From the NCBI RefSeq assembly GCF_964355755.1, contig NC_092671.1, positions 10,985,001 to 11,049,000 on the forward strand: DNA of 64,000 nucleotides, given 5' to 3'. Position numbers and translations under genes: made by a program. How positions within the stretch are numbered: position 1 is the first letter of the stretch; the number at the start of each line of letters is the position of its first letter. Under the pieces are notes generated by a model. It was not told where the DNA came from. It made no database searches and worked only from the letters and a program-made list of their open reading frames with translations. Of the stretch, positions 1 through 37,489 are shown one piece after another. The stretch comes from Antedon mediterranea (Eukaryota; Echinodermata; Crinoidea; Comatulida; Antedonidae).

Positions 1-3000
1 TCTCAAAATCATACATTCTGTTAATGTTGCAATTTATTTGCCGTATGTGGCTGTATCGAAATCATCTTATTCCAGAAGATCAATATGGTCTGCTTTTAGT
101 CGCTACATTCGCTCTTCCGCTGTGTGAATCTGAGCTTGTGACGTCAAAATATTTTTGCGCTGTAAAGCATGACATGTACGTGCACGCTGCAATAACCATC
201 GGGTGTAATATCTCGAATATGCGGTTAGCTGTTAAAGATTGGTATGATGAATTTTATAGGTTCACAAAAAGATGTGAGCAACTCTACGACGAAGGGCTCA
301 AAATGAACAAAGATATTAGATCTGAGGATGATACTAGAAACTTGGACAAGTTTACTTCCTGTATGTATAGCTTTATTTGAAAATTATATCTTAATAACAG
401 GCCTATAGTGTGTTTTATCGTTTGTACAGCTCAGACACCACATTACATGTTTACAGCATTATTCTCTTTATTATACTTTTTTTTTATCGAAATTAATTTG
501 TTTTTTTAAACATTTATTTTTAAAGTGGTGCAATCACGACTGAAGACAGCTGATCTGCATTTTGGCATATGCCAAGATGACTACATACCAGACAGGACCA
601 CAGACGAGCACCATAGACTGACTGAGCAAAATATAACCACTATTTTGAGTCATTGGAATGACAAAAGCTATAAAGCCTTCTGCCAGTCTATCACTGACGC
701 CGAAAATCAACTTAAAGATACTGGTTTTAGGCTACAAGTTGGTAGTTGGTTATCTCCTAGATACAAGGACGCATGTAATGTTTTAAATGGTTCTTATAAA
801 CAACTTGATAGTTCACAGTCTCTCCTTGACAATCTGCGTGACTATCTCATGGAACTCGTAGTTGACTGCAGGCGACTTCTGAAAGATTTGAAGATCTACA
901 GCAATGATTCAATGACAGACTGGGTTGAAGTTTTCTCTCGATTTTGTTCCGCTGATGATTGTGTATTTGGATCTTCTGAATGGCATGCAGTATTGGATAG
1001 AGCTAAAACAACAGTAGAAAATATGCCACGAGGAGCAAATATTATCGGACGAACAATTACACAAATGTATGTTCAACTTTTCGTAGAGTTAATGAAGAAG
1101 GCATTTCTAACATATCAGCAAATAACGCCTAAAGACCGACTTGGCCATGTTCGTTTGGCTTTAATTAACATGACAATGGTAAAAAGTCCTCTTCTGTCAA
1201 GTAAATGGTACTCAAGCATGCGATTTAATATATACTTGTGTGGGCTAAGAAGCATAGCATCATGTTTACTAGAAGCTGAGAAGCCTAATAAGGATACGTT
1301 CTATCAAGAATACAAAAACGTAAAAGAAAACATTGACAGTTTAATTGTAGAAAGTCGAAAATTCAAATTGCCGTTTGCCTCAAAGGAAGACTTGGAAAAG
1401 TTTATAGCTCTCCATAAAGGTAAATACAACAATATATAAATTATAAACCAAACTATTCGAAATATTAAAATATATATTTTATTAGGCCTATTTGTCGTTT
1501 TACTCTAGTAGTAAGCTATACCATTTATTAGTGGTCTCTACTTATATACATTACATACAATGCAACACACATAATATGTCATTAACATATAAAGTATAAT
1601 AATGTTTTTATACCTATCGCCTTTTCCCTGAAAAAAAAATTGATTTGAATTGATTAAAATTTCATTTAAAAACAATTGACTTAAAACAGGCTCTAACACT
1701 TTTATGTCTTTCAAAGACGTCAAGCAAAACATGACTGGTAGGTCACATTCTCGAAGCAAAGTGATTGCATCTGATCCTGATGTATCACGACTTGTTGAAA
1801 CGGCAGTCGCTAAATATCAACAAAAGGACTACGATCAGATGACCAAACATCTAGATGATGGTGAAAAGAAAGATGGATCATGTGATGTGCGATTGGCATT
1901 TGCTGGAAATATTTCTACTGAATTCCATCTTGTTGTCACTTTCAGCAATAATATACCCGAGGATAGTGGACTTTCGACTGTCGAGGAAACTACTCAGAAA
2001 TATTTGCTTTATTTGGCAAATGATCACCAAAATGTAATGAAATGTATGAACGAACGCCTAAGTAAGGATATGAAGACATTAACGGCTGACTTGTTCACGC
2101 TACCAAATGTTATGCCAGGTACTCATTCGTGGATACAACTGGAACGAGATGCCAAAAAGATGGTTCAGTATTTTGAAAGTTTAACCAAGAATGGGCAATC
2201 GGTCACTAAATGCTACATACTGCTTTTCCTGACGGTCATACATAATTTTATCGCAACACGTAACAGACTTCGTAGACCAGAGCATTTTAGACTGCTACCT
2301 TTCATATTGCCTTGCAGACTTATTTGCGAAAGTAAATTACTAGAGTCAAATGCATGGATAAAAACCAAATTTGAAGTTTATGAGGTAGTAGTACTGACAA
2401 CAGGTGCAGCACTTGGAACTGGGCAAATTCCATGTGATCTGCGTTATCCAGATTACTGGAAAATGTATGATGAACTCGTAGAAAGAGGGAAACAGTGTGG
2501 AATTGAACTAACTAATGCTAACAAGCAGGACCACATGGACAGAATGCGCCGGGGTAAGAAAGTAAAATATTTCTTCCGGTACCGTATAAATGTATTCTAA
2601 AAATGTATTAACATACATGTGTAGGCCTATTCATTTGTATTAGGACGTAAAAAACACGGTACTTGTCTAAAAAAAGTTTCACCCTCCTGAAAGAATTACT
2701 GTAACTTTCATTTAAAAATTTGACATACAAAAGCTTAGTTTTCACTCATTTACTAATTTCGTTTTAGATGGATTAAATCTTTGCAATGGCACAGAAGACA
2801 GAATGTGTATCACAGCAGCATTATTGTACCATAGAGCTGGTTGTTATAAAGGACTGATGCTGATATTAAATGCTGCTAATCAAACTAGCTCAGTCCAAAA
2901 TATTAGGATGAACTTTACCATGCGCGTGTCACATACATTTGAGAAATGTGTTGACTATCACAACAAAATCTCCAATGCAAACACTTATGAAGATCTTGTT

Positions 3001-4804
3001 GAGAAATCGTATCACTACTTATCCACCACCGCCAAAGATTTTTTGAAGTTCGTTAAGAATATGGGTGAAACAACTTCCAACGACCTAGTATGTTGGGTAG
3101 ACGAAGTCTTTCAAGCAAGAAACGGAAAACCCGAATTATATCCCGTATTGGAAATAGACTCCGTAACCGAGAAATGCAATATGGCATCCGTGTCTATACA
3201 ACGTATGAGTGAAGAAGCTAGATGTATCGCACAGACATATTTAGAATTCTTCATGAGTTTTATCATGAACTTCGTCACAAGACGATATCAATTGCATGTT
3301 AAGAATGTTTACAAGGGTGGATTGAAAATGACACTAGCTGTTATTATGCTGTGTAAAGATGTACTTGTCACATCTAACTTTTCGGTCAAACAAAAACTAG
3401 ACTCATACGGTGTAGCAGCAACATATATGACAGAAATTAGTGGCGGCGATGTTTGGACAGACAAAATGGAATTTGTTCTAAATGAACTTCCTAACCTAGA
3501 ACAACAGCGCAAACAGTTTGACGAAATATGCAGAAAGAGGGAAAGACAAAAAAAAGGGTAAGTATCAGTTCAGTTTTGGGGTGAAGGCCTAGGAAGGGGT
3601 TAATTTGATCATATTATTGATTTAATAAATTCCATGCAAACTATATAATTACTATTACTGTGACAAAATAATCTACAACATTCTTTTATTTGATACATAT
3701 TAAAGAATCACATTGTCAAAAGTCTTCCAAATCAAAAGTCTATGCAACCATTTGTAAGTTTGATATCCGTTTTTTTTTTTATTCTGTAAGTGTGGCCTAA
3801 CAATGAAAGACAAACTGAACAAAGCAAGACAAATGAGCAGAAACGGATTGCTGGCCTAAATACAATTACACGCAATAGTAAGTCAAATGCACCTGTATTA
3901 AAAACTATTGATTGTACTACCAGCTATTAAAGATTTCAGATTCATGTGTAAAATGTACATTTTAAATTTTAAACACCGTTTAGAATTAGAAAAAAGTACA
4001 GTTCATTTTATTTTATCTTTGGCTTTATTATTTGGGTGGCAGAGGGCTGTCTTCTTTTACCGCCCATTGGCACGTTTGCTTTGCCGGAATTAATTTTAGG
4101 AAATAGTAATAAAACAACATGGGTATACATTACCGAGTTAAACATAGTTATGGTATTTGAAACATTTAAGTTACTAACATCAGAATGTAATTATAGTAAT
4201 ACGTTTGGCATCACATCATCATCATCACAAACATTGTTCAAGTCAAAATACACAGAGAGTATTGTTTCCCAATGTGTAATGCAATGTCACTAACATTTTT
4301 GTTTTCCTCATTTCAGATGATTACCAGGCTGATGTAAGATACTTATTTGTTTACCAATAGTAGGCATTAATATAAAATAGTATTTTATACATTATCTATA
4401 GATATTTACCATGTTATTGCATACATGAACATGATTATGACTTGTTATTACAGAATATTATGAAACAAAAAAAATTGTTGGGAAATAATGAATACGAGTA
4501 CGAACACATCCTCAGTTGGAACACCTTTTCTACAGTATGCATACACTTGGACGTTACTAATGAAGCAAGACGCGACTGGAGAGCACTTGCTGGAGAGATG
4601 GGAGTACACGCTCAGACAATTGAAGCTTGTCTTCAAAGTAAAGATAACCCTACAAAAACACTTCTCGAGATTTTATTTAATCGAAATAAAGGTAAACCAC
4701 GGGAAGATGTATTGCTGGAACTCGCCGATATGTTAAAGAAATGCAAACTTGGCTATGCTGCTGACTTGGTTCAAAATGATATTCAAATGCCTTTTACAGA
4801 CTAG
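1..4804 (+). CDS. Death-domain module gene, copy 1 (5' end outside window, frameshifted)
   Basis: Exons by comparison with the complete paralogue at 9424-15818: 1-360 (3' part of module 1), 526-1419 (module 2), 1717-2553 (module 3), 2768-3557 (module 4), 4317-4333 (microexon), 4454-4804 (Death domain, TAG stop). The first 360 bases differ from 11161-11520 at 13 positions by my count. Exons 526-1419 and 1717-2553 have exactly the same lengths as in copy 2 (894 and 837 nt). Module-4 exon is 790 nt instead of 789: an extra G stands in the G run just before the donor (3556-3558). With canonical splicing this gives a TGA at once in the microexon, so the product would end after module 4 and lack the Death domain, although the Death-domain exon itself is open. 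No function is known for the modules. The SAM and linker exons, if present, lie left of the window. Confidence 0.8.
4454..4804 (+). CDS. Death-domain exon of copy 1 (open but out of frame with upstream exon)
   Basis: Acceptor TTATTACAG precedes 4454; reading starts in phase 0 and runs 116 codons to TAG at 4802-4804. The Death-domain signature is visible: a helix with CIHLD, then DWRALAGEMG, then IEACLQSKDNPTKTLLEILF and a final leucine-rich helix ending in AADL. This is the pattern of MyD88/IRAK/UNC5-type Death domains (known family feature). Because of the extra G at the end of the preceding exon, this exon is reached in frame only if the G is a sequence error or a different splice is used. 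Confidence 0.8.
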   Translation, partial: NIMKQKKLLGNNEYEYEHILSWNTFSTVCIHLDVTNEARRDWRALAGEMGVHAQTIEACLQSKDNPTKTLLEILFNRNKGKPREDVLLELADMLKKCKLGYAADLVQNDIQMPFTD

Positions 4805-7655: not shown

Positions 7656-9279
7656 CAGGGGTGGCGCCAGGATCTTCCCGACGCGGGGGCTACATTCCCC
7701 GATGAGGGGGCTATGCGAGCGAAGCGAGCATCACTAGGCTGGGGGGACAGGGGGCCGCGAAGGGCCCCCGGTGGGGGTCCAGGGGGCGAAGCCCCCGGAA
7801 GCAACGCGTTCTAGCGTCATTTGAGGTCATTTTAATCAGATTTAGGGTAGCCATTTTTTCCGTTTTTTATAATGCATAAATAAAATACTGCGTGCAAAAA
7901 AACGATGCGCGATGACTGTTTCAATCCATATTTTTCAATTTAAAAAATAAAAGTTCAAAGAAAAGAGTTGGAGGTCCCGGAAATTGGACTTATTATACTT
8001 CAAAACATGAAACAAAATATATAAGTCCCTATCATGGTTGTGACTGAGCTAAGAAATGTTTAAAAAATAGAGATGTTAGGTCCCGGAAAATGCACTTCTT
8101 GTACTTCGAAATATGACCAGCTTTATTATTGGGCAGGGCTGAGCTAAGAAACTGTTTAAAACTAGAGCTGCAGGTCTTCAAAAAATTGCATTTTATACTT
8201 TGGAAACATCAGGCCTAGAGGCTTAAAAAACGCAAGCGTAGACCTTGTTTAGTCGGGGAAATAAAGTTTATTCCTCCCAAGTGTATGCGTGCGTACCACC
8301 ACCTGGACTTCCGAGTGGTGAGAAATTCATGACATACAGGACATTGAAAATGTAATAACTTAGCTATAATAAGATGTTGGCTAAGCGAAAATGGCATGTT
8401 TTTTTGTTTAGTAATGGATGAAAAATTTATTTTAGGTGCCCCACGGTAGAGAAGGTTACTTGTAAATTAAAAAATTGGTGAACATACGAACAATTAACAT
8501 AATTTGTTTTTGCTGTAGTGTAGCGTACGTCGACGCAGTACACGACGTAACCGTCAGTAAACTTCGCCTGGAAAATAACTACAGTACACATTTTTGGTCC
8601 CTGGATGGAACATGATATCACGCGTCTCGACCCAACGTTGAACGATTCGTACAAAGGGATACCGCCAGACAAGTGCGAACCTAGCTATTGTTTAGTAGTA
8701 AGTTAGATCGCTGGCAATAATGGATGCATATAAAGTGCATAATATCACTCTGACGTACTCTCACAGTCAATGAAACCTCGCGGTTTTCTAGGCGCTGAAG
8801 CTAGCTACGAAGTGAACGCGAACGCTTTTTACTGTATATTATATTCCCCGACAAAAAGTACCCGTGTTCCCTTCGGTAACCGTCGGTAAACTTCGCCTGG
8901 AAAATAACTACATTACACATTTTGGTCCCTGGATGGAACTTGATATCACGCGTCTCGACCCAACGTTGAACGATTCGTACAAAGGGATACCGCCAGACAA
9001 GTGCGAACCTAACTATTGTTTAGTAGTAAGTTAGATCGCTGGCAATAAAATGCATATAAAGTGCATAATATCACTCTGACGTACTCTCACGGTCAATGAA
9101 ACGTCGCGGTTTTCTAGTAGTAGTATACGCGCTGAAGCTAGCTACGAAGTGAACGCGAACGCTTTTTACTGTATATTATATTCCCCGACAAAAAGTACCC
9201 GTGTTCCCCGATGAGGGAGGCTAGGCTCCCCGACGAGGGGGCTAGAGCCCCCGTAGCCCCCCCGCTGGCGCCACCACTG
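7656..9279. mobile_element. Non-autonomous hAT-type DNA transposon, 1624 bp
   Basis: Left end CAGGGGTGGCGCCAG (7656) and right end, as complement, CAGTGGTGGCGCCAG (ending 9279) are terminal inverted repeats. The element is bounded by a perfect 8-bp duplication GTAGCAGC (7648-7655 and 9280-9287). An 8-bp duplication and a CAG...CTG end are hallmarks of hAT elements. Near both ends are GC-rich segments with GGGGGCT/AGCCCCC words that pair with each other, unlike the AT-rich surroundings. No transposase ORF is seen. Inside lies a direct tandem duplication of about 329 bp (8547-8875 and 8876-9206). Confidence 0.9.
8547..9206 (+). repeat. Two-copy direct repeat, ~329-bp unit, inside the hAT element
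   Basis: The unit beginning GTAACCGTC at 8547 recurs at 8876 with few changes. Both copies contain the words CGCGTCTCGACCCAACG and GATCGCTGGCAATAA. A small insertion (TAGTAGTAGTATACG) is seen in the second copy and a few bases (ATGG) are missing from it. No coding potential is evident. Confidence 0.85.
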
Positions 9280-9423: not shown

Positions 9424-9703
9424 ATGTCTAATCGTAAGAAGAAGAAACAAGAACTTGAACGCTTCAAATCCGAACTAAAGTTACGCGACTTACGCGATGA
9501 CGTCATTGAAATCTTAATTAACGAAGGATTCAGTCGTTTGTCCGATTTACGAGGTTTAGAAGTGGAAGACTTGGATAAAATACAGAATCTTCAACTGGCA
9601 CAGTATGTGATTCTGAAAACAAAAATTAAAGAGAAATGGAGTAAGGTGTATGACATGGAGAGCAGCAGTGATGGTGAGAGCACAGTAGAAGAAAATGTTG
9701 AAG
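9424..9703 (+). CDS. Exon 1 of copy 2: SAM-like domain
   Basis: Encodes 93 codons plus one base. After a basic start (RKKKK) come helices with RFKSELKLRDL, DDVIEILINEGFSRLSDLRGL, EVEDLDKI and a long C-terminal helix to KEKW. The spacing, with a hydrophobic helix, then LxxL, then a downstream leucine helix, fits a sterile alpha motif. The exon ends in an acidic Ser/Glu stretch at donor GTAAAG. SAM assignment is by pattern only and should be read as SAM-like. Confidence 0.7.
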
Positions 9704-12700
9704 GTAAAGAGTAAAACCTGGAAAGATGTAATTTATTAAAACGATGTTATTTCATTCAGATATTAAAGTTTTTTAAATGATTTTATAATGATTACAGGAA
9801 AACAGGATGCAAACTTTGCTAAGAATTAACAAAGAAAAACACTGCAAATAAATTCGCATACTGTAGTAATATTGTATAAACCCGGCACTAATGACAGCCT
9901 ATCCTATAAATGTATTCAGTATACCGTATAGGTTTACATTAAAAACAATATTCTAGTAAATCACAGATATTCTTCTGAATGAATTCATTGTCCTGCTACG
10001 TGGATGTATTCATTATTTGCATACTGTATATTATTTTTAACGAATTAGGCCTACTGGAACAAATGTTTTAAATATCCGAACGATTAGATTAGAGGTAGAG
10101 ATGTATGTATAATTAAATTCAATAATTATAACTTCTTATCTGGCTTGAACAGAAAAAGATGAGCCGGAATCGGAATCCAGAAAATGGCAGAAGAAGCACA
10201 AAAGAAACTCTTCGAAAGTAGGTCTCGATAGTGGTACTTCAAGCTCTAAAACGGAGGATCACAAAGCTTCGGATCAACGAACAGGGGTCAAGAGTAAAGC
10301 TTCAACTCAAACCAAACCCAACAAACCCGACAAAACTTCGGATATAGAGAGTGGACAAAACACTCAAGATAACAATCGCGCCCAAAAACAACACAGTACT
10401 GGGGATGGTGAAAAAACAGAAATGAAGAGTGATTTTAACAAAAGTAAACCCAAGGACGACAAACATGAAAAAACGTCGACAGGACACGTTTCAGATAATG
10501 AAGGTATGATTTTCACAATAGTAAATGCCAATTTTAACCATGATTAGTCGTCGAATACCTTTATATTACTTTAGTAACTGTTAGACAAATTTTCTTTTGT
10601 AAATATTCTTTGCAAACAAAATCCAATATTAAATACCATAAATATAGAATTAATCATTAATATGGTGATGTGCTAAACTATGTTTGCATCCACAGACGTT
10701 GAACAGTCGAACGACTTGATAGAACACTTCAATTGCGATTTAGCTAAACGGTATTTCAAACAGAAGCGATATGATAAAATGGAAGAAGTGTTGATTAAAG
10801 TGGACAGGCAGACGAAATCAGCATACGGTAGAGGAAGATTCGCCACGAAGATATCACAGGGGTGTAATGATTTTGCCGAGTTACATGACTGCATTAACCA
10901 TCAGATGACAGATGTCAAAGTTTTGCATGAACTGGCATGTGCGCAGTTCCTTTCCCTTGCAGAGTCTCACAGAGAGATATTGAAAGAGATGGACATGGAC
11001 ACAGAATGTACTATCTTTACTGAATGGGCTAGTCGCTTAGAAGTGATATTCATGGAGAATTCGCCTCTTGAATACGGTTCACTTGAATGGAAAACTGTGA
11101 TTTCCAAAACAGAGGAAGTGGAAAGGTTTTTTTCATCTCTTCCAATTCCAGCAAGAAATGTCTCAAAATCATACATTCTGTTAATGTTGCAATTTATTTG
11201 CCGTATGTGGCTGTATCGAAATCATCTTATTCCAGAAGATCAATATGGTCTGCTTTTAGTCGCTACATTTGCTCTTCCGCTGTGTGAATCTGAGCTTGTG
11301 ACATCAAAATATTTTTGCGCTGTAAAGCATGACATGTACGTGCACGCGGCAATAACCATAGGATGTAATATCTCTAATTTGCGGCTAGCTGTTAAAAATT
11401 GGTATGATGAATTTTATAGGTTCACACAAAGATGTGAGAAACTCTACGACGAAGGGCTCAAAATGAACAAGGATATTAGATCTGAGGATGATACTAGAAA
11501 CTTGGACAAGTTTACTTCCCGTATGTATAGCTTTATTTGAAAATTATATTAATAGTATGCGGCCTGGTGAAATCACCACTGAAGAACGTTTTAGATAGAT
11601 CAATTACCATAATTAGGTTTGTTTTCATTGTTTTAAGTGTTTCGCCTTTTCTCTTATTTATGTTGGTTTGTTAATAAAATATAATATTTATTTGTTTATT
11701 CTTAAAGTGGTGGAATCACGACTGAAGACAGCTGATCTGCATTTTGACATAGGCCAAGATGATTACATACCAGACAGGACCACAGACGAGCATCATAGAC
11801 TGACTGAGCAAAATGTAACCACTATTTTGAATCACTGGAAAGACAAAAGTTATGAAACCTTTTGCCAGTCAATCACCGAGGCCGAAAATCAACTTAAAGA
11901 TACTGGTTTTAGGCTACAGGTTGGTAGTTGTTTATCACCTAGATACCAGGACGCATGTAATGTTCTAAATGGTTCTTATAAACAACTTGATAATTCGCAG
12001 TCTCTTCTTGACAATCTACGTGACTATCTCATGGAACTTGTAATTGACTGCAGGCGACTTCTGAAAGAGTTGAAGATCTACAGCAATGATTCAATGACAG
12101 AATGGGTTGAAGTTTTCTCTCGTTTTTGTTCCTCTGATGATTGTGTATTTGGATCTCCTGAATGGAATGCAATATTGGATAGAGCTAAAATAACAGTGGA
12201 AAATATGCCACGGGGAGCAAATGTTATCGGTCGAACCATTACCCAACTGTATGTTCAACTGTTCGTAGAGTTAATGAAGAAGGCATTTCTAGCATATCAG
12301 CAAATAACGCCTAAAGATCGACTTGGCCATGTTCGTTTGGCTTTAATCAACATGACAATGGTAAAAAGTCCTCTTCTGTCCAATAAATGGTACTCAAGCG
12401 TGCGATTTAATGTATATTTGTGTGGGCTAAGAAGCATAGCATCATGTTTACTAGAAGCTGAGAAGGCTAATAAGGATAAGTTCTATAAAGAATACAAAAC
12501 CGTCAAAGAAAACATTGACAGTTTAATTGTAGAAAGTCGAAAATTAAAAATGCCATTTGCCTCAAAGGAAGACTTAGAAAAGTTTAGAGCCCTCGATAAA
12601 GGTAAATCCAACAATACATAAGTTATAAACAAAAATATTCGAAATATTTAAAAAATATATACATATAATAGGGATACCTATTGTTTGTAGTTTTACTCTC

Positions 12701-15700
12701 TCTAGTAAGCATTATTGATCTCTACTTATACATAAAATGCAACACACATCATTAACGTATAAAGTATGATGATGTGTTTATGCCTATTTTCCATGAAAAA
12801 AGGTTTAATAACGATAATTCTATTCAATTTAGAACTGATTGTAACTTCATTTAAAAACAATTAACTAACTGTATATTTTATGTCTTATAAAGCCGTCAAG
12901 CAAAATATGACTGGTAGTTCGAAATCTCGAAGTAATGTGATTGCATCTGATCCTGGTGTATCACGACTTGTTGACGCGGCAGTGGATAAATACCTCAAAA
13001 GGGATTACGATCAGATGACTAAACATCTAGATGATGCTGAAGAGAAAGATGGATCATGTGATGTGCGATTGGCATTTGCTGGAAATATTTCTACAGAATT
13101 CCATCTTGTTGTCACTTTCAGCAATAATATACCCGAGGATAGTGGACTTGCGACTGTCGAGGAAACTACTCAGAAATATTTGCTTTACTTGGCAAATGAT
13201 CACCAAAATGTAATGAAATTAATGAACGAAAACTCAAGTGACGCTATGAAGACATTAACGGTTGGCCTGTTCACGCTGCCAAATGTTATGCCAGGTACAG
13301 ATCCGTGGATAAAACTGGAACGAAATGCCAAACAGATGGTTCAGTATTTCGAAAGTTTAACCAAGAGTGGTCAATCGGTCACTAAATCGTACATACTGCT
13401 TTTCCTGACGGTCATACATAATTTTATCGCCACACGTAACAGACTTCGTAGAGGAGAACATGTTAGACTGCTACCTTTCATATTGCCTTGCAGAGTTATT
13501 TGCGAAAGCAAATTACTAGAGTCAAAAGCGTGGATAAAAACCAAGTTTGAAGTTTATGAGATAGTCGTACTGACAACAGGTGCATCACTTGGAACTGGAC
13601 AAATTCCATGTGATCCACGTTATCCAGATTATTTGAAAATGTATGATGAACTTGTAAAAAGAGGGAAACAGTATGAAATTGAACTAACTAATGCTAATAA
13701 GCAGGAACACATGGACACTGTGCGGCAGGGTAAGAAAGTCATCATTATTTCTTTCCTTATCGGAATTTATCTGCATATTAATTTATATCAAGTTTAGAAA
13801 AATACGGTAGTTATTTTAATAGAGTTTGTGTATGATTCTCTAAAAACGCACGTTTCGCACTTTTGAAAGTACTGTAACATTTTGTTTTTCAAATAATAAT
13901 TATGAATAAACTTTCTTTTAAAATCTTAGTAGCGTATTTAATTTATCTTTTTAGAGGGATTAAATCTTTGCCACGGAACAGAAGACAGAATGTGTATCAC
14001 AGCAGCATTATTGTACCATAGAGCTGGTTGTTATAAAGGACTCATGTTGATACTAAATGCTGCTAACCAAACTCGTGCAGTCAAAAATATAAGAATGAAC
14101 TTTACCATGCGTGCGTCACAAACATTTGAAAAATGTGTTGACTATCACAACGAAATCTCCGATGCAAACACTTATGAAGATCTTGTTGAGAAATCGTATC
14201 ACTACTTATCCACCGCCGCAAAAGATTTGTTAAATTTCGTTGAGAAAATGGGTGAAAAAACTTCAAACGACCTAATACTTTGGGTAGACGAAATCTTTCA
14301 AGCAACAAACGGAAAACCCGAATTATATCCAGTTCTGGAAATAGAATCAGTAACCGAGAAATGCAATATGGCATCCGTGTCTATACAACGTATGAGTGAA
14401 GAAGCTAAATGTATCGCACAGACATATTTAAACTTTTTTATGAGTTTTATTATGAACTTCGTCACAAGACGTTTTCAATTGCATGTTAACGATGTTTGGA
14501 TTGGTGGATTGAAAATAACACTGGCGGTTATTATGCTGTGTAAAGATGTTCTTGTCACGTCTAATTTTTCCGTCAAACAAAAACAGAACTCATACAATGT
14601 AGCAGCAGCATATATGACACAAATGAGTGACGACGATGTTTGGACAGAAGAAATTGAATTTGTTGTAAATGAACTTCCTAACCTAAAACTACAGCGTAAA
14701 AAGTTTGACGAAATATGCAGAAAGAGGGAAAGACAAAAGAACGGTAAATATCAGTTGACGTTTTTAGGGTGTAGGAGGGATAATTTGATCATAGTATTGA
14801 TTTCATAAATTCCATGCCAACTATATGACTATATTAATGAGATAAATAATCTACAACATGCGTTCATGCGATACATATTATAGAATCACATGGACAAGAT
14901 TCATGCAATTTTTTGTAAGTTAATTGATATCCATACTGATAAGCTTTTTTTTTTCTGTAAGTGTGGCCTAACAATGAAATACAAACTGAACAAAGCAAGA
15001 CACAGGATCAGACACCATGTGAACGGAACACAAAGATTGTTGCCCTATATGAGTTTAGTAAGTCAAATGCACTCCTTAGTAAGTCAAATGCACGCGTATT
15101 AAAAACTATTGAGTTTAGTCTTCTTTTCCACCCATTGGCACATTAAAGCTTGTTGTTAACGTTGCTTTGACGAATTTTTTTTTTAACAACATGGGTATAT
15201 TATAGAGTTAAACGTATACTTCTTATCGTATTTGAAGAGAATGTAATTACTAAATACACAGCGAGTATTGTTTTTCAATGTTTAATGCAATGTCACTAAC
15301 ATTTTGTTTTCCTCATTTCAGGAGGTGACCAAGTTGATGTAAGAAATTTACTTGTTTACCCATAATAGTAGGCCTTAATATATTATAGTATTTTATACAT
15401 AGATCTATAGATATTTACCATGATATTGCATACATGACCATATTATTATGACTTGTTATTACAGGATTTTATGAAAAAAGAAATATTGTTGGGAAAAAAT
15501 GGAAAATACGAGTACGAACACATTCTCAGTTGGGACACCTTTTCTACAGTATGCATACACTTAAACACCACTCGTGCCTTTTCACAAGATTGGAGAGCAT
15601 TTGCTGATGAGATGGGAGTAAAAACTGAGACAATTGAAGCTTGGCTTCAAAGTAGAGGTAACCCTACAAACACACTGCTCGAGATTTTCTTTAATCGAAA

Positions 15701-15818
15701 TAAAGGTAAACCACGGGAAGATATATTGCTGGAACTCGTCGATACGTTAAAGACATGCAAACTTGACAATGCTGCTGACTTAGTTGAGAAGGATATTCAA
15801 CGGAATTTTAAAAACTAG
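9424..15818 (+). CDS. SAM - four helical modules - Death domain protein, copy 2 (complete, 1448 aa)
   Basis: Coding exons: 9424-9703, 10153-10503, 10696-11520, 11708-12601, 12893-13729, 13955-14743, 15322-15338, 15465-15818; total 4347 nt, an exact multiple of three with no internal stop. Every junction from exon 1 to exon 6 is phase 1; the 17-nt exon changes it to phase 0. Order in the protein: SAM-like domain (residues ~13-72), Ser/Lys/Thr-rich linker (~94-210), modules M1 (~211-485), M2 (~486-783), M3 (~784-1062), M4 (~1063-1325), Death domain (~1348-1440). No signal peptide or membrane segment, so a cytosolic adaptor is likely. SAM and Death domains are known protein-interaction folds of signalling adaptors; the modules match no family I recognise. 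The start is the ATG at 9424 (A at -3); an in-frame TGA lies upstream at 9373. Confidence 0.87.
10153..10503 (+). CDS. Exon 2 of copy 2: charged low-complexity linker
   Basis: 117 codons rich in Lys, Ser, Thr, Asp, Gln; no hydrophobic core, so probably disordered. It joins the SAM exon and module 1 in phase 1. Part of its 3' end (GEKTEMKS to HVSDNE) is found again in the chimeric first exon of copy 3 at 37288-37489. Acceptor TTGAACAG, donor GTATGA. Confidence 0.8.
10696..11520 (+). CDS. Exon 3 of copy 2: helical module M1
   Basis: 275 codons. Core pattern shared with the next three exons: a conserved W in SLEWKTVISK, about 20 residues to a long hydrophobic helix (SKSYILLMLQFICRMWL), then a basic loop, an Leu/Val-rich helix (LLLVATFALPLC), SELVTSKY and a further helix with HAAITI. 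Predicted all-alpha by composition. No catalytic motif seen. Acceptor is in CATCCACAG, donor GTATGT, phase 1 on both sides. Confidence 0.85.
11708..12601 (+). CDS. Exon 4 of copy 2: helical module M2
   Basis: 298 codons, the longest module. The same order of features as M1: SPEWNAILDRA, then GRTITQLYVQLFVELMKKAF, then LGHVRLALINMTMV, KSPLLSNKW and a helix with LCGLRSIA. Before the core is an extra segment of about 60 residues rich in Asp/Thr. The 894-nt length is identical in copy 1. In copy 3 only the first ~45 codons are recognisable. Confidence 0.85.
12893..13729 (+). CDS. Exon 5 of copy 2: helical module M3
   Basis: 279 codons; the 837-nt length is identical in copies 1 and 3. Core: DPWIKLERNAKQMV, TKSYILLFLTVIHNFIATR, LLPFILPCRVICESKLLESKAW and a Val-rich helix VVLTTGA. 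The acceptor is the AG of ATAAAG at 12891-12892, which preserves phase 1 (an ATG a few codons earlier, at 12880, is intronic in this model). Of the modules this is the most constant between the three gene copies. Confidence 0.85.
13955..14743 (+). CDS. Exon 6 of copy 2: helical module M4
   Basis: 263 codons. Core pattern: ELYPVLEIESV in place of the W motif, then AQTYLNFFMSFIMNFVTRR, GGLKITLAVIMLCKDVLVTSNF and a helix with NVAAAYM; ends in a very basic Lys/Arg helix before donor GTAAAT. Same length (789 nt) as in copy 3; copy 1 has 790 nt. Confidence 0.85.
15322..15338 (+). CDS. Exon 7 of copy 2: 17-nt microexon
   Basis: A 17-base exon between TTTCAG and GTAAGA encoding GGDQVD across the junction. 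It turns phase 1 into phase 0. The same 17-nt exon, with the same acceptor and GTAAGA donor, is present at 4317-4333 (DDYQAD) and 48552-48568 (GGDQVD). Skipping it would break the frame into the Death domain. Confidence 0.75.
15465..15818 (+). CDS. Exon 8 of copy 2: Death domain and C-terminus
   Basis: 117 codons plus TAG. Death-domain features: HILSWDTFSTVCIHL helix, DWRAFADEMGV with the characteristic D-W pair (about residues 1373-1374), a helix TETIEAW, the NPTNTLLEIF segment and a last helix with LLELVDTLK and AADLV. In known adaptors this fold makes homotypic contacts with other Death domains. Partner unknown. Confidence 0.88.
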   Translation, partial: DFMKKEILLGKNGKYEYEHILSWDTFSTVCIHLNTTRAFSQDWRAFADEMGVKTETIEAWLQSRGNPTNTLLEIFFNRNKGKPREDILLELVDTLKTCKLDNAADLVEKDIQRNFKN

Positions 15819-20507: not shown

Positions 20508-20907
20508 ACGTACTATAAAAACATCACAGGCCACGATCTATTCAATGAACTCCAAACCAAGGGTTATATTTCGTACGAGCCTAATGATGCATCCTGTATG
20601 TGGAAATGTTAGTAGATATTGCAAAAGTAACAGAAGAGAACCATGCTTTACAGATTATACAAACATTTAAACAAAACCATAATAACAACAACAAAAACTA
20701 CAATTTTACAAAAGGGAAACCAATATCAGAATATCGCTAAATCTCTTCAAAGCTTTACAATCAAATACGACTGATTTATTAGCAAAGATGCCCGGTCACT
20801 ATCGTTTAAATCCTGCTGATTTTAACAGTAAGTGGGATTTGGTATTTACACTGGAAGGAAATAAATATTTAGAGGAAGACAACATACATTACGTACTATA
20901 AAGACAT
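20508..20907 (+). pseudogene. DED-exon fragment flanked by 17-bp direct repeats
   Basis: 20522-20890 matches 21914-22283 of the DED gene, with a 4-base deletion after TCCTGTA, a 2-base loss near TATCGC and several substitutions, so it is frameshifted. It is bounded by ACGTACTATAAAAACAT (20508-20524) and ACGTACTATAAAGACAT (20891-20907), 16 of 17 identical. It begins and ends inside one exon and has no poly-A tail. Confidence 0.8.
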
Positions 20908-21782
20908 ATTATGTTGTTTATCAAACTGGTCGGGTATCAATAAATGACAAGGGTTCATTTCTCATTACAAGTAAGGCATAGCTCGTTTGAAACTAGTCTG
21001 AAAATAATATTTAGATGAATTTTTGTCAATTTCGTTACAATTACGTAAATACATTTATGCACGTTCGTGCATGATATCACAGGTTCATTTCGTTAGTTGG
21101 TGTTTGTTTAATTGTTTTGTTTTTTTGCGTGACAAATAATAATAGACAAACACACATAGGAATTAAAACTGAAGTTCAACAAAGTCAAAGATTTCCAACT
21201 TACAAGAATGTTTCCACAAAATACAGAATATTGTCCAAAAGTCCAAAATATCTCAAAATGTTTTACTGTTTTTACATTATAGGTTTTACACAACATATTT
21301 TGAACAATTCGTTGGATTGAGATTGTGACAAGATTCAACAGGCAGGATTCAACTTACCGTGCGCATTGTCTATGAACTTTTAAATTATTAATTCTATACT
21401 AGGTATGTTTTCTGAGTTTTGTGTAAAACTCAATCTGAAATGTAGTCTAAATCTACAAGATGTGATTATGTGTTGCCAACATGAGAATACCACGGGACGC
21501 TTAAAGCTAGACCTAACAATACGTTTAAACATGTGAATGTATCATCATAATTATACGATTAAAAAAAACAACACAATTTGCAATGATATAATAATAATCA
21601 ATGGATGGGATTAAGCTTTTATGGTAACTAAAACAATTGATCAAAATGGTAGGTTAAATGGGGTGTGGTTTGGGCATGTGAATATGGGAGGGGTGTGGGA
21701 GTTGGGGTAATCATTGTTTATATTTTTTATAGGTAACTTATTAAATGCAATGCTGTACAATATTTCCTCACTATTCCAGAAA

Positions 21783-23565
21783 ATGTCATTCGATCTAGAA
21801 TTTCCGGGATTACTTGCAGCGATAAGTGAAATATATACAGGTGAAAAATTGTTTTGGCTACGACTTCTTCTATTCGACCACTGTTCTGGAGCACTGTTAA
21901 GCAGACCAAAGATCACAGGCCACGATCTATTCAATGAACTCCAAACCAAGGGTTATATTTCGTACGAGCCTAATGATGCATCCTGTACAGATGTGGAAAT
22001 GTTAATAGATATTGCAAAAGTAACAGAAGAGAACCATGCTTTACAGATTATACAAACATTTAAACAAAATCATAAGAACCACAACAGAAACTACAATTTT
22101 ACAAAAGGGAAACCAATATCAGAATATCGCAAAAATCTCTTCAAAGCTTTACAATCAAATACGACTGAATTATTAGCAAAGATGCCCGGTCACTATCGTC
22201 TAAATCCTGCTGATTTTAACAGTAAGTGGGATTTGCTATTTAAGCTGGAAGGAAATAAAGATTTAGAGGAAGACAACATAGAGAAGATGGAATATTTTGC
22301 GATGATTCTTGACGAAGATGCAAAACAGATTTTTTTGCAAACCCAAAACGGTATGTGAATTGTTATGACATATTGTAAATAAAACAGGAGAAGGACAGTA
22401 AAAAAGACATGATTAAAAGTCAAGATGGTATAATCTTATACCCTTAATATTTCTGATTTTGTGTATCTTAGGCTCCAATATTTCATGAAAACACACTGAT
22501 TTTGTTTTCACATCTAAAGTTCATTACAATTAAACTTGAACTATTGTATATGAAAATAGTGTACACATACTATAGATAATAATTATAACCCTTATGATTT
22601 TGTTGTAAGTAACTTTCTTAACGTTGTATTCATGCATAGCTTTTCATTGAGAAATTAAAACTGTACACATTGTTAGACCTACCGTATTTATTCGAATAAA
22701 CGTCCCTTGAAGTTCGGGGGGGGGGGGGGGGTTTAGGGAAGACGTTTTTTTTATCTATTTTTTTTTATTTCATTTTGTTTTGTGGGTGTAATATCGTAAC
22801 ATGTTGGCCTATAATCAAAAGAATTCTCCCTAAATATGAAAAAAAAATACAACCCAATTAATATCAAGATGTGGTCAAATACAGTAAACGTTGTATCAAC
22901 ATACTTGGTCAAGTGTAGGTCATGGAAGTCAATGAATTACACTACAAATATAAATATGCTATATACAATATTGGGTGTATATGCATATGGCGGTGTGTTT
23001 AATTGATGGAAAAATAAAGGCCTCGGGCGTTTATTTGAAGTGGAATTTATTCCAAACGATTAGGGAGTGCGTTTATTCAAAGCGGGACGTTTATTCAAAT
23101 AAATATGGTAAAATAAATATCGTACTACTTATAGCAACCTATATATTATATAAATTATTATAAACAATTACCCGAAAGATGGAACACTGCTGTAAAGGAA
23201 GAAAATTAAGAATTAATGAGCTCAATACAAAAAGGCATAAATTTAAATATACATATTATACTGCATATAAAACACTATGATAAGAAGAAAAAAGGCAAAA
23301 GGTCCCAGAAGAAACCAATAAAGAAGAGAACCCATGTTGAAACGTTTAATTATTACAAGATATTGTTATATTTCCAATTAAAATGTCGTTCAAATTTCCA
23401 AAAATACTTAATATCATAATTAATTTAATATTTTGTTTATTTTATCATCATAAATTTAGACAACATATACAAATTCCTGTTTTGTTCAATAGTTTCCTTT
23501 TCTAATTTCAGGGCACTCTGATGATAGCAGGCAAGTCTCTGCTGCAAAACAGAAGAGGAAAGGAG
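21783..23565 (+). CDS. Death-effector-domain (DED) protein gene
   Basis: Exons: 21783-22350 (189 codons + 1 nt) and 23512-23565 (18 codons, phase 1-1). Start chosen at the ATG at 21783 (AAA before it); an in-frame ATG at 21750 is possible, and a possible acceptor (TTTTTTATAG) lies at 21731. Residues ~5-90 look like a DED: FPGLLAAISEIY, then LRLLLFDHCSG, LFNELQTKGYIS, DVEMLIDIAKV and HALQII, the order seen in FADD/caspase-8 type DEDs. A basic/Asn-rich segment and a second helical region follow. Exon 2 is charged (KQKRKG). Without further splicing the frame stops soon after 23565 (TGA about 23574); with splicing at GTAAAC it could continue into the phase-1 exons at 26257 onward. Role inferred: apoptotic or immune adaptor. 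Confidence 0.65.
22680..23110. mobile_element. MITE-like element with ~27-bp terminal inverted repeats
   Basis: Left end TACCGTATTTATTCGAATA and right end (complement) TACCATATTTATTTGAATA continue as inverted copies through AAACGTCCC. TA dinucleotides at both ends fit a TA target site. The interior holds a 12-15 base G run (about 22717) and further degenerate copies of the GTTTATTC word. No ORF. Lies in the intron after the DED exon. Confidence 0.65.
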
Positions 23566-25621: not shown

Positions 25622-28600
25622 ATGGCAGCTGCTCCAAAAGGAACTGGAAAAAGGAAGACGGTAAAAGAGTCCGATGAAGAAGTGAACTCAGGTTAAACAT
25701 TTTGAATTAAGTAGTATAAAGTTTCAATTGTTTTTTATGGGAAACTAACGTGTACGTGCACTTTAAAACAGACCAAGCCGAATGTGTGGCAAATGGGTGA
25801 TGTAGAATTGTAGATGACAATAAACTATATGTTTTTTGTCGAGGGCGGCGGTTGATAATTGATGACCACAATGCTGCTGGTCCAGTGCAGACTTTATACA
25901 GTTATTACACATGTGTAAAGCAAAACCCTTCTCACATAATCGCTCTCTTGCGATTCCAGTTCAACGGCATAACCCCTAATCTTCTCGAATGAAATAAATA
26001 ATGTACATAATTATACATTCTGATTTAGATTTACAATAGGTACATGTTTTCCGTATAAGGCGTATAAGACTGCACATTCTTCCCCACCGAAACATTTTGT
26101 TATCATTTACAATAACCACAATTAATTGTAGTTAAACTAATGAAATAACTCGATAATCCAACTTAATCCTTAATCCTACAATATGTGGATATACAAAGTA
26201 TAATATGCCTGCACATTTGCAAATGCTAACATTTTGCAACTATTATAATTTAATAGATACTACTGATAAAGACTATGATGACGGTGCTTGTACTTCAACA
26301 GCTTGCAATCACAATGAATCAGAAAAAGGTGATTTGTGTAACACAATATAATTTGAAGTAATAATGATGATGACAACGGATTATATTCCATGGTCGCCTT
26401 TTAAGTGTGTGCCTTCTGATGAGGCTATTTTATCTTTACATAGCAGTTATATAAGGATATAATTATTGTTGTTCATAATTCAGTATTAATGATAAACATA
26501 GTAATAATTATACTTATATTTCACATGTATTACATAAAAGATATATAAATAAAGTTTAAATCATTTTAATGTGTATTTTGCATATTTCAAATAAAAGTTT
26601 ACCCTAATTAGGATAGTAATATAGTTGTTTTAAATACTTCTGATTAATATCATCTGCTCGTGCCATTATCATAATTATTTATCACTTTTTACCCTTTTTG
26701 TTCACGGATTTATGAGAAGTGTATCTTAAGAAAAGTTGAAAATATTATATGAAAGATCCTACGCACCCGCTACATTACTGTTACCATTTTAATAGATCTG
26801 GCATTAGACTAAGACCCACTAAAATCAATCTATGTAGAACAAGAAGCCCTTTGTTGCAAATAGTATTAATTATGTACAATTCTAAAGTTCTTCGATAAAT
26901 AATTGTTGCAATTTTTTATTTTAGATTTTAATCGTTTTAACAGTATTCTACAGAGCCTATGGCGCTTTTAATAGCTTTTTAATAGCATTTTAACATTTTG
27001 ATAGTATTTTAACATTACCATTTCCAATTTGATGTATTGTTGCTTTGTTTTGTTGTCATGACAGAGCGCGAATTTTTCAATTTGTTATTTATAGCTGCAT
27101 GCGTCTGTATTTAAAATGTTAATATTAATAATCTATTTTATAATATCGGATACAAGCAAAACAAATTTCCATTTTAAAGTGGACATATACAATTTCTTGA
27201 ATCTTCAATATTGAATCTTACCAATATTTATTTTCACAAAAAATGACAAAATATTATTGTTTGCAGCATGTGATGTCTTTATAGTGACTGCGTATCTTAA
27301 ATGGGAGAAAAAAATATACAACAAACTGAATAAAAGAGGTCAGAAAGGCTACATTATAGGAAAAACACACTGTAGGTATGTCATTGCCAGAGAGCATAAT
27401 GAAGAAAAACATATTTCAGTGGACGTATGCACCAGCAAGGGTGCCGGTTTGATACCAGTTCCTATTAATGATGGCGACTCGTTGCCAAAAAAACGGAAAA
27501 GACGAATACTTTATGATAGTGATGACGAGGACCTGTTATGTGAGGATATTTTAACTGAAATACATAAATTGAAAGTAAATCCACAAGGTAATTTAATTTC
27601 ACCTATTATATTTATCCAATTGTAAAGATAAAGCACAGAATAAAAAAAACCTAATACAAGATGAAAAGGACCATCAACAATAAAATATGGGAGCTTAATT
27701 GTACGTGGTTGATGACTTAATTACAACGTAATGAGAATGCAATTGGACTATAGTAAAGACACTTTTAATAACATTATCATGAAATATACATTCAGTCAGT
27801 TAATTAAGACAGAAATAAAATAATTATAGCATCTATGCGAGATGTAAGCCAGCTTGGTTGAAGCATAAAAAAAAAATGATGTCATTATTGTTATATATTG
27901 TGCTCTGGGAATGAATGATAACACTAAGTATTTCACTAAGAAATCAGACCATGCGCTAATGTTCAGCCAGGCTTGTAGAACTCCTTTATTGGTCTCTAAT
28001 TTAGTCCTTAAATTGCTAATATGAATATATTACAATTATCTCATTTGTGATGATGTCATTTGACTATAGAACTGTATTTGAATTATGTTGTTAGCTGTTT
28101 CCAACGTATTATTAGTCTAAAAGACGGAAGGTATAACCACAGGTTGATTTTTTTAAATTTTTTTTTTCATTTTATGAAGCTTTCGGATTGGAAGTTATTG
28201 GTATAGATGTATATAACAGATGCATGCAAAAGCTGTCTGCCATTAAAGAATACTTTACTCATACGTTTGGCATGAATGTACGGTATTGGCGAGGCAGTTC
28301 AATAATATTCTACCTTACTGTAAACGATGCAAACAACCTAAAGCGTTTCTGGAGTATGTATGTTAACAAAGAAATAGTAAGATATTTAGCAGAATTATTG
28401 AAGTATGATGGGAATGATTTGAAAACTTTTATAGACGAGGATGAATACCTACGTGTTCTTCAAGAAATAGATGCAAAAGAAGGTAAGTTTTCGTCCTTAT
28501 AAAACTTTTTGAATTAAAACTTTACCAGCGTTCAACGTACATGTACAGGCTTCCATATAGGTATAAGTACTATATAAAGACAGTTTTTGTTTGACTTATT

Positions 28601-29996
28601 TCTTATTAAATAACATACCAAAGCTATAAAACATGCTTAATGAAAATGTGGTGTAGGATACAGTAAAATATGATTGATAAGTTTGATTTTAAAATTGACT
28701 GCCAGCCAATGGGTTTTTTGTTGAATTTAACCGGTTTTTTTTTTGTTTTTTTTATAAGTGAAAACATTATATTTTGTTCGTGTTTTTCTGCGGAACTTTA
28801 TTATAACTACAAAATGGCCTATTCATAATCCGATTTTATTAATCTTCTTTTTTTCTCGTTTTTGGAGGATAATAAAGTATAATAAATACATGATGATGAT
28901 TTGATAATATAATAATTTTTTCCTAATAATAACCATATATTATAATATAATTACCTTATTCTTTGAAGTTTAAATGTTAAATATGAAAATGACCATAATA
29001 ATGGTTAATTAGGACCAACAATTCTTCAATCTCAACTGGTGCATATGTGGCTGAAGGCCACCTGATGGGGGGTTGTCAATTGGATTACCCTCATAAAATA
29101 ACTGGCTATCCGTGGATTTACTTCTGGACATAATTGAGCGTTCACATCCAAATTATAGCGATATCATATGGATGATCCAGTTAAATTAACTAGTCATATG
29201 TGAACGCCACTGTTGAGATAATAAACTGTAATTTCAATCATAACAAGGCCATATACATGGCTGCAGTCGCGTGCGCGAATTTGAGTTAGTGTTTACCGAC
29301 CGACCGACATACTGAGCATAATGGAGTAGCGTGAACAAAAAATCTGACTTAAAAAATACTAATATTTATTTGGTAAAACAAAGCTTGCATATATATTCTT
29401 TGTAGAATGTGATGTATTTATAGTCACCAAAGATATTCGCTGGGAGAAACGAGTATACAGAAAACTTGAAGAAAGAGGTCACCAAGGCTACAAGATAGAA
29501 AAAACTCACTGCAAGTTTGTAATTGTTCAAGACCATAATGATGAAGAGCATACCAGATATGTAGTGAGAATATGCACAAGCAGTGGAAATGATTTGATAC
29601 CAGTGCCTATTCAAGATGGTGACCCGTTGCCGACGCTGCAGAAACAATGTGTACTTGGATGGTTGGGCGATGACGAGGATTCTCTTTGTGACAACATGCA
29701 AATTATAGTCAAAAATTTGAAAGAAATAGGTAATACAATTGCAACTTAAATTGACTTTGTGAAAGTCAGTACAACTGGTAATGAGAATACATACAATTAA
29801 AGAAACTTATTGAACTTTAAAGTAGAAAAACAATGTAATAATACACAGTTGTATTTTATTTCTGTAGTATAAGCGAAATTTATATCTGTGTGGTTTATAT
29901 ATTATAGAATTGTTGCTTTTTCAGAACCGACACCAATACCAGCACTAGTACCGACTCCAGCAAGAATGCCAATACTGGCACAGGAAGCGCCACCAG
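25622..29996 (+). CDS. Gene with a duplicated unknown domain and a TRADD-N-like exon
   Basis: Exons: 25622-25691 (ATG start, in-frame TAA just upstream), 26257-26328, 27267-27587, 28180-28482, 29406-29729, 29925-29996; all junctions phase 1. The exons at 27267 and 29406 are paralogues of each other: both start CDVFIVT, then a WEK..Y.KL..RG..GY.I.KTHC stretch, CTS.G..LIPVPI.DGD.LP and a C-terminal helix. The exon at 28180 encodes a ~100-residue alpha/beta segment with GSSIIFYLTV followed by LKRFWSMYVN, a strand-helix pattern reminiscent of TRADD-N-like domains (tentative). The last exon is Pro-rich (PTPIPALVPTP). Donor CCAG|GTATGT at 29996 is strong, so more exons probably follow; unspliced reading ends at TAG 30038-30040. 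It may run on into copy 3 (see findings). Confidence 0.62.
27267..29729 (+). repeat. Tandem exon duplication (27267-27587 and 29406-29729)
   Basis: Two exons of 321 and 324 nt encode clearly homologous domains in the same gene, separated by the single unrelated exon 28180-28482. Both are phase 1-1, so duplication or loss leaves the frame intact. Conserved positions include CDVFIVT, the THC triplet, CTS and LIPVPI. Confidence 0.75.
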
Positions 29997-33903: not shown

Positions 33904-34980
33904 TCAGTTAAGATCATTCATGCAAAGGTTTCCGTCATCTTTAGCGTTGTTACAGCGGCATAAAGCTGTACATGGTAGTTTTGACTTCTTGCACCTACAT
34001 CTATTGGTTATGCATCGTGTCTTGCATCCACAATAAATCATCTCTAACGAAGCAGTAGGAATAGCTTCATTTTTCAGAAGCACTGGTTGAAGTTTACCAT
34101 TAGATAGCTCCCAACCAAAATATGTTGGTGATGGCAAGTGCTGGATTGGCGATACAGCTTTTTTCCATACGAGTGCTTGGAAGTGTGCTTTTTTTATATG
34201 TTGGTGCACGGCATCGCTTGTTGGAGGTAATGCCTCTGGTTTTTTTTGGTTAAAAGCCTAACTTCATTGGTACTTTTAACTTGACCAACACCGTAAACGT
34301 AGCAAATGAATCTTTCCGATTTCATAATAACTTGGTCACTGATAGGTTTTCTCCCAGGTCTTTAATTTGTTCATACTTTTTTTTTAATACTTCCCATGCC
34401 GATGCCTTTGAGTGATGACCACTTAGATATGAGCAGTGAAGATTTAAATTACTGTATGTATGTATTAATGTAATTTAACTCTTCCCTGGATATGAGTAGT
34501 ATCGCATCCACTAATAGTGTGGAATGGAATCAGTGCTTTTGTAGAACCCTCGGGCAAGGCTTGAAAAATGTCTTTTATAGATACTTTCTTTTTTTGGATG
34601 TCCCTGTCATCATCCATTTGGATACCATGCTTTGGTAGTGAGACACTAGAATCACTAGTACGTCTGTATCCCTAGAAGCAACTACAACTGTGTCGTATCG
34701 GACATTGGCAGCATGACAAGTCTCGTGTCCGATTCTTCATGGTCTGCGACCAGAGACAACGTATTCGTGTAGACTTTTGATGATTTAACAACTAATTCTT
34801 TCATAAATCCACCAGCTGTGACAATTTCTTTGTCTATAGGAGCTTGACGAATCAACTCCTCTGATAGAAATCGTGTCAGATCTGCATTATTATCTTGTAA
34901 TGCCAAAAAGTTTGACCAGCAATTTGGCAGCGGTATTTCACCACTTTCTATAATTCGACGAATTGGTCTCTGTGTTTTGG
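33904..34980 (-). pseudogene. Broken transposon gene with CXC-type Cys-rich C-terminus
   Basis: Reading on the - strand from the spacer into the left arm, two open pieces are seen: 34682-34906 (with DHEESDTRLVM, followed in the next frame by an SRDTDVLVIL-like stretch) and 33904-34209 (with a CGCKTRC..NRCRCKKSKLPC..LCRC cluster). The Cys-rich cluster resembles the tesmin/TSO1 CXC pattern often found in transposon-derived invertebrate genes together with a HEE.DTR motif. Frameshifts separate the pieces. A second, separately decayed copy of the Cys-rich end is at 35033-35380 on the + strand with an in-frame TAG after TASF. Confidence 0.65.
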
Positions 34981-35032
34981 TTCATCTTTGTCTGGTGGTG
35001 TCCTTTATCGACAGTTTTAAGTTAGGCATGCC

Positions 35033-35380
35033 ATGTTTAAAAAAAAACCAGAGCCATTACCTCCAACAAGCGATGCAGTGCACCAGCATATAAAAAGAGA
35101 ACACTTCCAAGCACTCGTATTGAAAAAAGCTGTATCGCCAATCCAGCATTTGCCATCACCAACAGATTTTGGGTGGGAGCTATCTAATGGTAAACTTCAA
35201 CCAGTGCTTCTGAAAAATGAAGCTATTCCTACTGCTTCGTTTTAGATGATTTATTGTGGATGCAAGACACGATGCATAACCATATAGATGTAGGTGCAAA
35301 AAGTCAAAACTACCATGTACAGCTTTATGCTACTGTAACAACGCTAAAGATGACGACGGAAACCTTAGCATGGAATGATC
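35033..35380 (+). pseudogene. Second copy of CXC-type ORF end in right arm
   Basis: Inverted duplicate of 33904-34243. Open from 35033 to the TAG at 35243-35245, where the left arm reads Leu-Glu; beyond the stop the Cys-rich stretch is still recognisable but has small indels. It lacks the upstream HEE.DTR part, which is only in the spacer. Confidence 0.7.
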
Positions 35381-37287: not shown

Positions 37288-37489
37288 ATGTTGTCAGATA
37301 CAGATAACTACAGAATATCTATTCGTTTTCTTAAAGTGTTTGAATCACGACGGAAGACAGCTGATGTGAATATTTACAGTATTCAGGCTGGTGAAAAAAC
37401 AGAACTGATGAAGAGTAAGTTTAACACAGATACACCCAAGGACAACAAACAAGAAACAACAACGAAAAAACACGTTTCAGATATTGAAG
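37288..37489 (+). CDS. Chimeric first exon of copy 3
   Basis: The first part (TTCTTAAAGTGTTTGAATCACG to about 37370) matches the intron end and start of the M2 exon (compare 11700-11745), while the rest (from GGTGAAAAAACAGAA to the donor) matches the 3' end of the linker exon 2 (compare 10407-10503). The exon therefore joins the acceptor of one exon with the donor of another. Phase 1 is kept at the donor. An ATG at 37288 in the former intron part could serve as start; no SAM exon is found nearby. Confidence 0.7.

Follow-up and report, generated by a model that had tools for sequence, protein, structure and literature searches.

The stretch of DNA analysed here (the window) comprises 64,000 nucleotides of the Antedon mediterranea contig NC_092671.1 (10,985,001-11,049,000, forward strand), and the gene that had been reported in it, here called copy B, occupies positions 9424-15818 of its plus strand. 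When the whole 354-Mb assembly was searched, five gene copies were found on this one contig, spread over 0.26 Mb (Table 1). A, B and C are arranged in tandem on the plus strand and carry a Death domain, and D and E, at a distance of about 0.2 Mb, are encoded on the minus strand. Thus, the further copies that an initial annotation of the sequence had noticed nearby were recovered as A and C in the window, and D and E were added from elsewhere on the contig.

Table 1. Features of the five gene copies (window positions count from the first nucleotide of the window).
Feature	Window position	Contig position	Strand	Description
Copy B exon 1	9424-9703		+	SAM-like (helix-hairpin-helix-like), residues 1-93; open frame from ATG
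Copy B exon 2	10153-10503		+	Charged low-complexity linker, residues 94-210
Copy B exon 3	10696-11520		+	TPR-like module M1
Copy B exon 4	11708-12601		+	TPR-like module M2
Copy B exon 5	12893-13729		+	TPR-like module M3 (the module modelled)
Copy B exon 6	13955-14743		+	TPR-like module M4
Copy B exon 7	15322-15338		+	17-nt micro-exon; restores phase 0 ahead of the Death-domain exon
Copy B exon 8	15465-15818		+	C-terminal Death domain (Pfam match) and stop
Copy A	1-4804 (3′ part)	10,983,153-10,989,795	+	5′ exons lie before the window
Copy A M1	end, to 360		+
Copy A M2	526-1419		+
Copy A M3	1717-2553		+
Copy A M4	2768-3557		+
Copy A exon 7	4317-4333		+
Copy A exon 8	4454-4804		+	Death domain
Copy C	37402-49029	about 11,022,600-11,034,030	+	Rearranged; includes an exon-2 remnant
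Copy C M1	37623-38434		+
Copy C M2	39156-39420		+	First ~57 amino acids only
Copy C M3	41928-42764		+
LINE-type ORF	43596-46853		+	1085 amino acids; endonuclease and reverse transcriptase
Copy C M4	47138-47926		+
Copy C exon 7	48552-48568		+
Copy C exon 8	48691-49029		+	Death domain
Copy D		10,806,991-10,813,762	-	Distant paralogue
Copy E		10,775,763 to about 10,788,880	-	Distant paralogue

Copy B had been described as a clean frame of 1448 amino acids, and the rebuilt gene reproduces this model exactly, with 8 exons (4347 nt), no internal stops, AG and GT flanks throughout, six initial introns in phase 1 and a last one in phase 0. The length and flanks of the micro-exon are the same in copies A and C. 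In nucleotide alignments of copies A and B, identity is 90-98% in exons 1-6 and 85% in exon 8, with hardly any indels in exons 1-6 except in the linker exon, which is about 130 nt longer in copy A and has an intact frame. Indels keep the frame in all exons except exon 6, and every AG and GT splice dinucleotide is retained. Introns 2-6 are 74-90% identical and contain many gaps, and introns 1 and 7 are about 92% identical. Over the whole coding part, codon-based dN/dS is close to 0.4 (0.41 for A-B, 0.47 for C-B, 0.43 for A-C and 0.41 for D-E), while values of 0.20-0.52 between copies in the modules show that purifying selection acts on them. As the frame is uninterrupted, the splice sites are shared with copy A and the codons are constrained, copy B can be considered a real coding gene and not a chance frame. 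Immediately upstream of it, a tandemly duplicated sequence is observed at 8500-9250.

Most of the protein is made up of the modules M1-M4, each of about 270 amino acids and encoded by one exon with phase-1 introns on either side, so that a module could be duplicated without breaking the frame. Modules find each other both in genome-wide searches (E-values down to 5e-14, with M3 of copy B as query against the M2 exon of copy D) and in all-against-all phmmer comparisons (E-values for a 19-sequence database) and, because of this, are four diverged copies of one domain. Consequently, the four helical modules initially described are present as units, but not as four different domains. In the module tree, each position (M1 to M4) clusters across both sub-families with support of 0.98 or more, which, as judged from these sequences, makes the four-module array older than the split between the forms with a Death domain (A-C) and those with an acidic tail (D and E).

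As in copy B, the exon-1 domain and M1-M4 are found in copies D and E, which are 34-42% identical to it in M1 and M3 and less so elsewhere. No Death domain was detected downstream of D or E, on their strand, within about 10 kb. Both end in a short acidic tail (DWFSY...ITIN) that is found nowhere else in the genome, and whose last residues (FQIGALGLCIIDSQNITINM in copy D and LNITGKQNVCVSNAQHITINL in copy E) form a hydrophobic stretch that resembles a RHIM by eye; no RHIM was matched in these tails by Pfam. As a strong-looking donor site overlaps the stop codon in D and E, these genes may have a further exon past it. The simplest history would begin with an older four-module gene, followed by either the gain of a Death domain in the A-C lineage or its loss from D/E. 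The Death domain is part of the architecture in A-C, including copy B, for which it had been proposed, but in the D/E sub-family none was found.

The locus had also been described as an expanding family, but part of this family is damaged. In copy A, the frame shifts by +1 within a poly-A run where M4 ends, ahead of the Death domain; this shift could be genuine or could stem from a mistake in the assembly. In copy C, no exon 1 was found, most of M2 is missing and a LINE-type ORF is inserted in the intron between M3 and M4, and copy D has a frameshift in M3. The intact copies are B, the sole complete one with a Death domain, and, apparently, E. Between A and B, dS is about 0.06 in exons 1 and 3, far below the 0.17-0.22 of M2-M4, which suggests gene conversion.

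The C-terminal Death domain is firmly recognised. With a gathering cut-off of 22.6 bits for Pfam Death (PF00531), it scores 29.9 bits in copy B, 32.0 in copy A and 34.4 in copy C, so this element of the initial annotation holds for all three copies, and in each of them its frame is open and the micro-exon has been retained. The genome contains at least 150 Death-domain matches, and the PDB sequences nearest to the domain of copy B are those of MyD88 and FADD, with weak E-values (0.03-0.14). Its dN/dS is 0.72-1.17 (1.17 for A-B), as compared with 0.2-0.5 for the modules, and the excess of non-synonymous change over the modules is significant for A-B (Fisher p 0.0016), but not for C-B (0.076) or A-C (0.11). 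This fast change could be a consequence of relaxed constraint, and diversifying selection on the signalling surface would also fit.

For the middle of the protein, about 1100 residues that had been said to match no known family, profile and structure searches were run, and no known family reached a cut-off or significance. No TPR family passes the Pfam cut-off in any of 18 modules, the best match being TPR_8 in M1 of copy E (E 0.0034, 17.9 bits against a cut-off of 25.7), where, as in copy D, a sub-cutoff TPR-like signature lies in the first hairpin; in the Pfam table for the first member of the module set, no family of any kind passes. The module profile found nothing below E 0.15 among PDB sequences, the whole copy B protein had no significant match there, and neither viral structures (at E below 0.5) nor PADLOC yielded a match. 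Their predicted fold looks like one of the TPR/14-3-3 type and not like something unknown. The predicted structure of M3 (pLDDT 81.7, pTM 0.82, from an alignment of 10 sequences, all from the window) is all helical, with about six hairpins, and its nearest structures are the TPR proteins SKI3, LGN and sNASP, plus 14-3-3. The TPR chains give VIA Z-scores of 8.6-9.6, under the stated helical baseline near 14, and 14-3-3, the best Foldseek match, gives E-values of 0.06-0.3 over about 250 columns with TM-scores of 0.22-0.29 (0.23 at E 0.06). All of these fall short of the level that helical proteins reach through a common arrangement, and the likeness to 14-3-3, with which there is no sequence match, may be just such an arrangement. 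The modules are, most likely, a diverged TPR-like array of helical hairpins. Like the TPR scaffolds LGN/Pins, SKI3 and sNASP, they would be built of hairpin arrays, but they share only about 4-10% identity with them in structural alignments and form four units of about six hairpins with one exon per unit, in contrast to the uniform 34-residue repeats of those scaffolds.

The N-terminal SAM domain of the initial annotation was not confirmed. The same initiator methionine opens exon 1 in copies A, B, D and E, but no Pfam SAM family matched this exon (E-value limits of 1 for copy B and 10 for D and E) and its single-sequence structure model was poor (pTM 0.37). Against 11 SAM domains taken from this genome, hhalign gave a weak match (probability 4.6%, P 0.009) that was nevertheless colinear and scored above all of 200 column shuffles. 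These results are suggestive of a SAM-like domain rather than a SAM domain proper. Matches of the exon-1 profile to PDB sequences of DisA, LRR chains and NusA were rejected (E 0.06 or worse).

Of the adaptor architecture originally proposed, then, the Death domain and the long helical middle without a known family stand, and the SAM domain is only suggestive. Our preferred reading, with moderate confidence, is that copy B encodes a large scaffold, probably cytosolic or otherwise intracellular, with a TPR-like four-module array and a Death-domain signalling output. M1-M4, with about six hairpins each, would form a long binding solenoid; the N-terminal domain may aid self-association or oligomerisation; and, once the scaffold is occupied or clustered, the Death domain would recruit downstream Death-domain partners, conceivably in an immune or cell-death context. 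Beyond the presence of the Death domain, we infer every part of this role. It fits its setting because the genome is rich in Death domains and because fusions of Death-like domains to repeat scaffolds have been widely described from marine invertebrates (PMC8195603, PMC2575513). Copy B belongs, as a variant, among these domain-shuffled adaptors, with which it shares the fusion to a repeat scaffold, the variation in architecture between paralogues and a retroelement in one copy. By contrast, no TRADD-N, NACHT or caspase domain was detected in it, and its repeat unit is absent from the libraries searched. The C-terminal position of its Death domain recalls MyD88 and FADD, from which it differs in its 1448 amino acids, its long helical array and the lack of a TIR or DED by Pfam.

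Other explanations must be weighed against this one. It is possible, although rather unlikely, that the functional unit is the array, a TPR protein that acts as a binding scaffold or in a chaperone-like way, with no role in cell death, and that one sub-family acquired its Death domain by exon shuffling and keeps it under weak constraint. The acidic-tailed D and E, the age of the array and the higher dN/dS of the Death domain would all agree with this; nevertheless, diversifying selection would account for the latter too, and what argues against a dispensable addition is that A, B and C all retain the micro-exon and, in an open frame, a Death domain that scores above the cut-off. It also seems unlikely that copy B is a divergent member of a described animal family missing from the libraries searched, such as a TTC28-like or other TPR family. 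TTC28-like TPRs fused to TRADD-N have been reported in marine invertebrates (PMC8195603), and both the TPR-like signal in M1 of D/E and the TPR structures among the best matches point in this direction, but the TPR matches remain below the cut-off, no Pfam family passes for the first module-set member and the PDB sequence search was equally negative. Finally, the damage in A, C and D might indicate a decaying cluster of recent duplicates (A, B and C) that are being lost, with B having no selected function. We find this improbable, since B is open over 4.3 kb and the dN/dS of the modules between copies is not neutral.

Another reading, which we put forward only as a doubtful possibility, is that the modules represent a new animal domain family, in which a four-unit helical array, with an exon per unit, acts as a platform for sensing, with a C-terminal output that has been exchanged (a Death domain in A-C, and an acidic tail with a hydrophobic, possibly RHIM-like end in D and E). 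If expressed, copy B contributes a large scaffold with a Death domain, built from a module that neither Pfam nor the PDB sequences contain. Its gene cluster joins one older repeat array to a Death domain in some copies and to a different tail in others, a concrete case for how invertebrates build new signalling adaptors.

Several other ORFs were observed in the window. An ORF at 21711-22358 (plus strand) matches DED below the cut-off (13.6 bits, E 0.08), and its C-terminal part occurs again about 1 kb upstream (20686-20901); this is a possible DED gene beside the Death-domain cluster. Two related ORFs at 27215-27625 and 29363-29749 (plus strand; CDVFIVT...KWEKKIYNKLNKRG...) look TIR-like by eye and matched no family tested, and another at 28137-28502 (plus strand) looks TRADD-N-like by eye, with no Pfam or PDB match. 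Inverted, near-identical ORF pieces with a Cys-rich stretch at 33904-35245 resemble a transposon remnant. Additionally, a single-exon ORF at 59385-60689 (plus strand) has sub-cutoff immunoglobulin-like matches, as well as a probable membrane span with a short tail after it.
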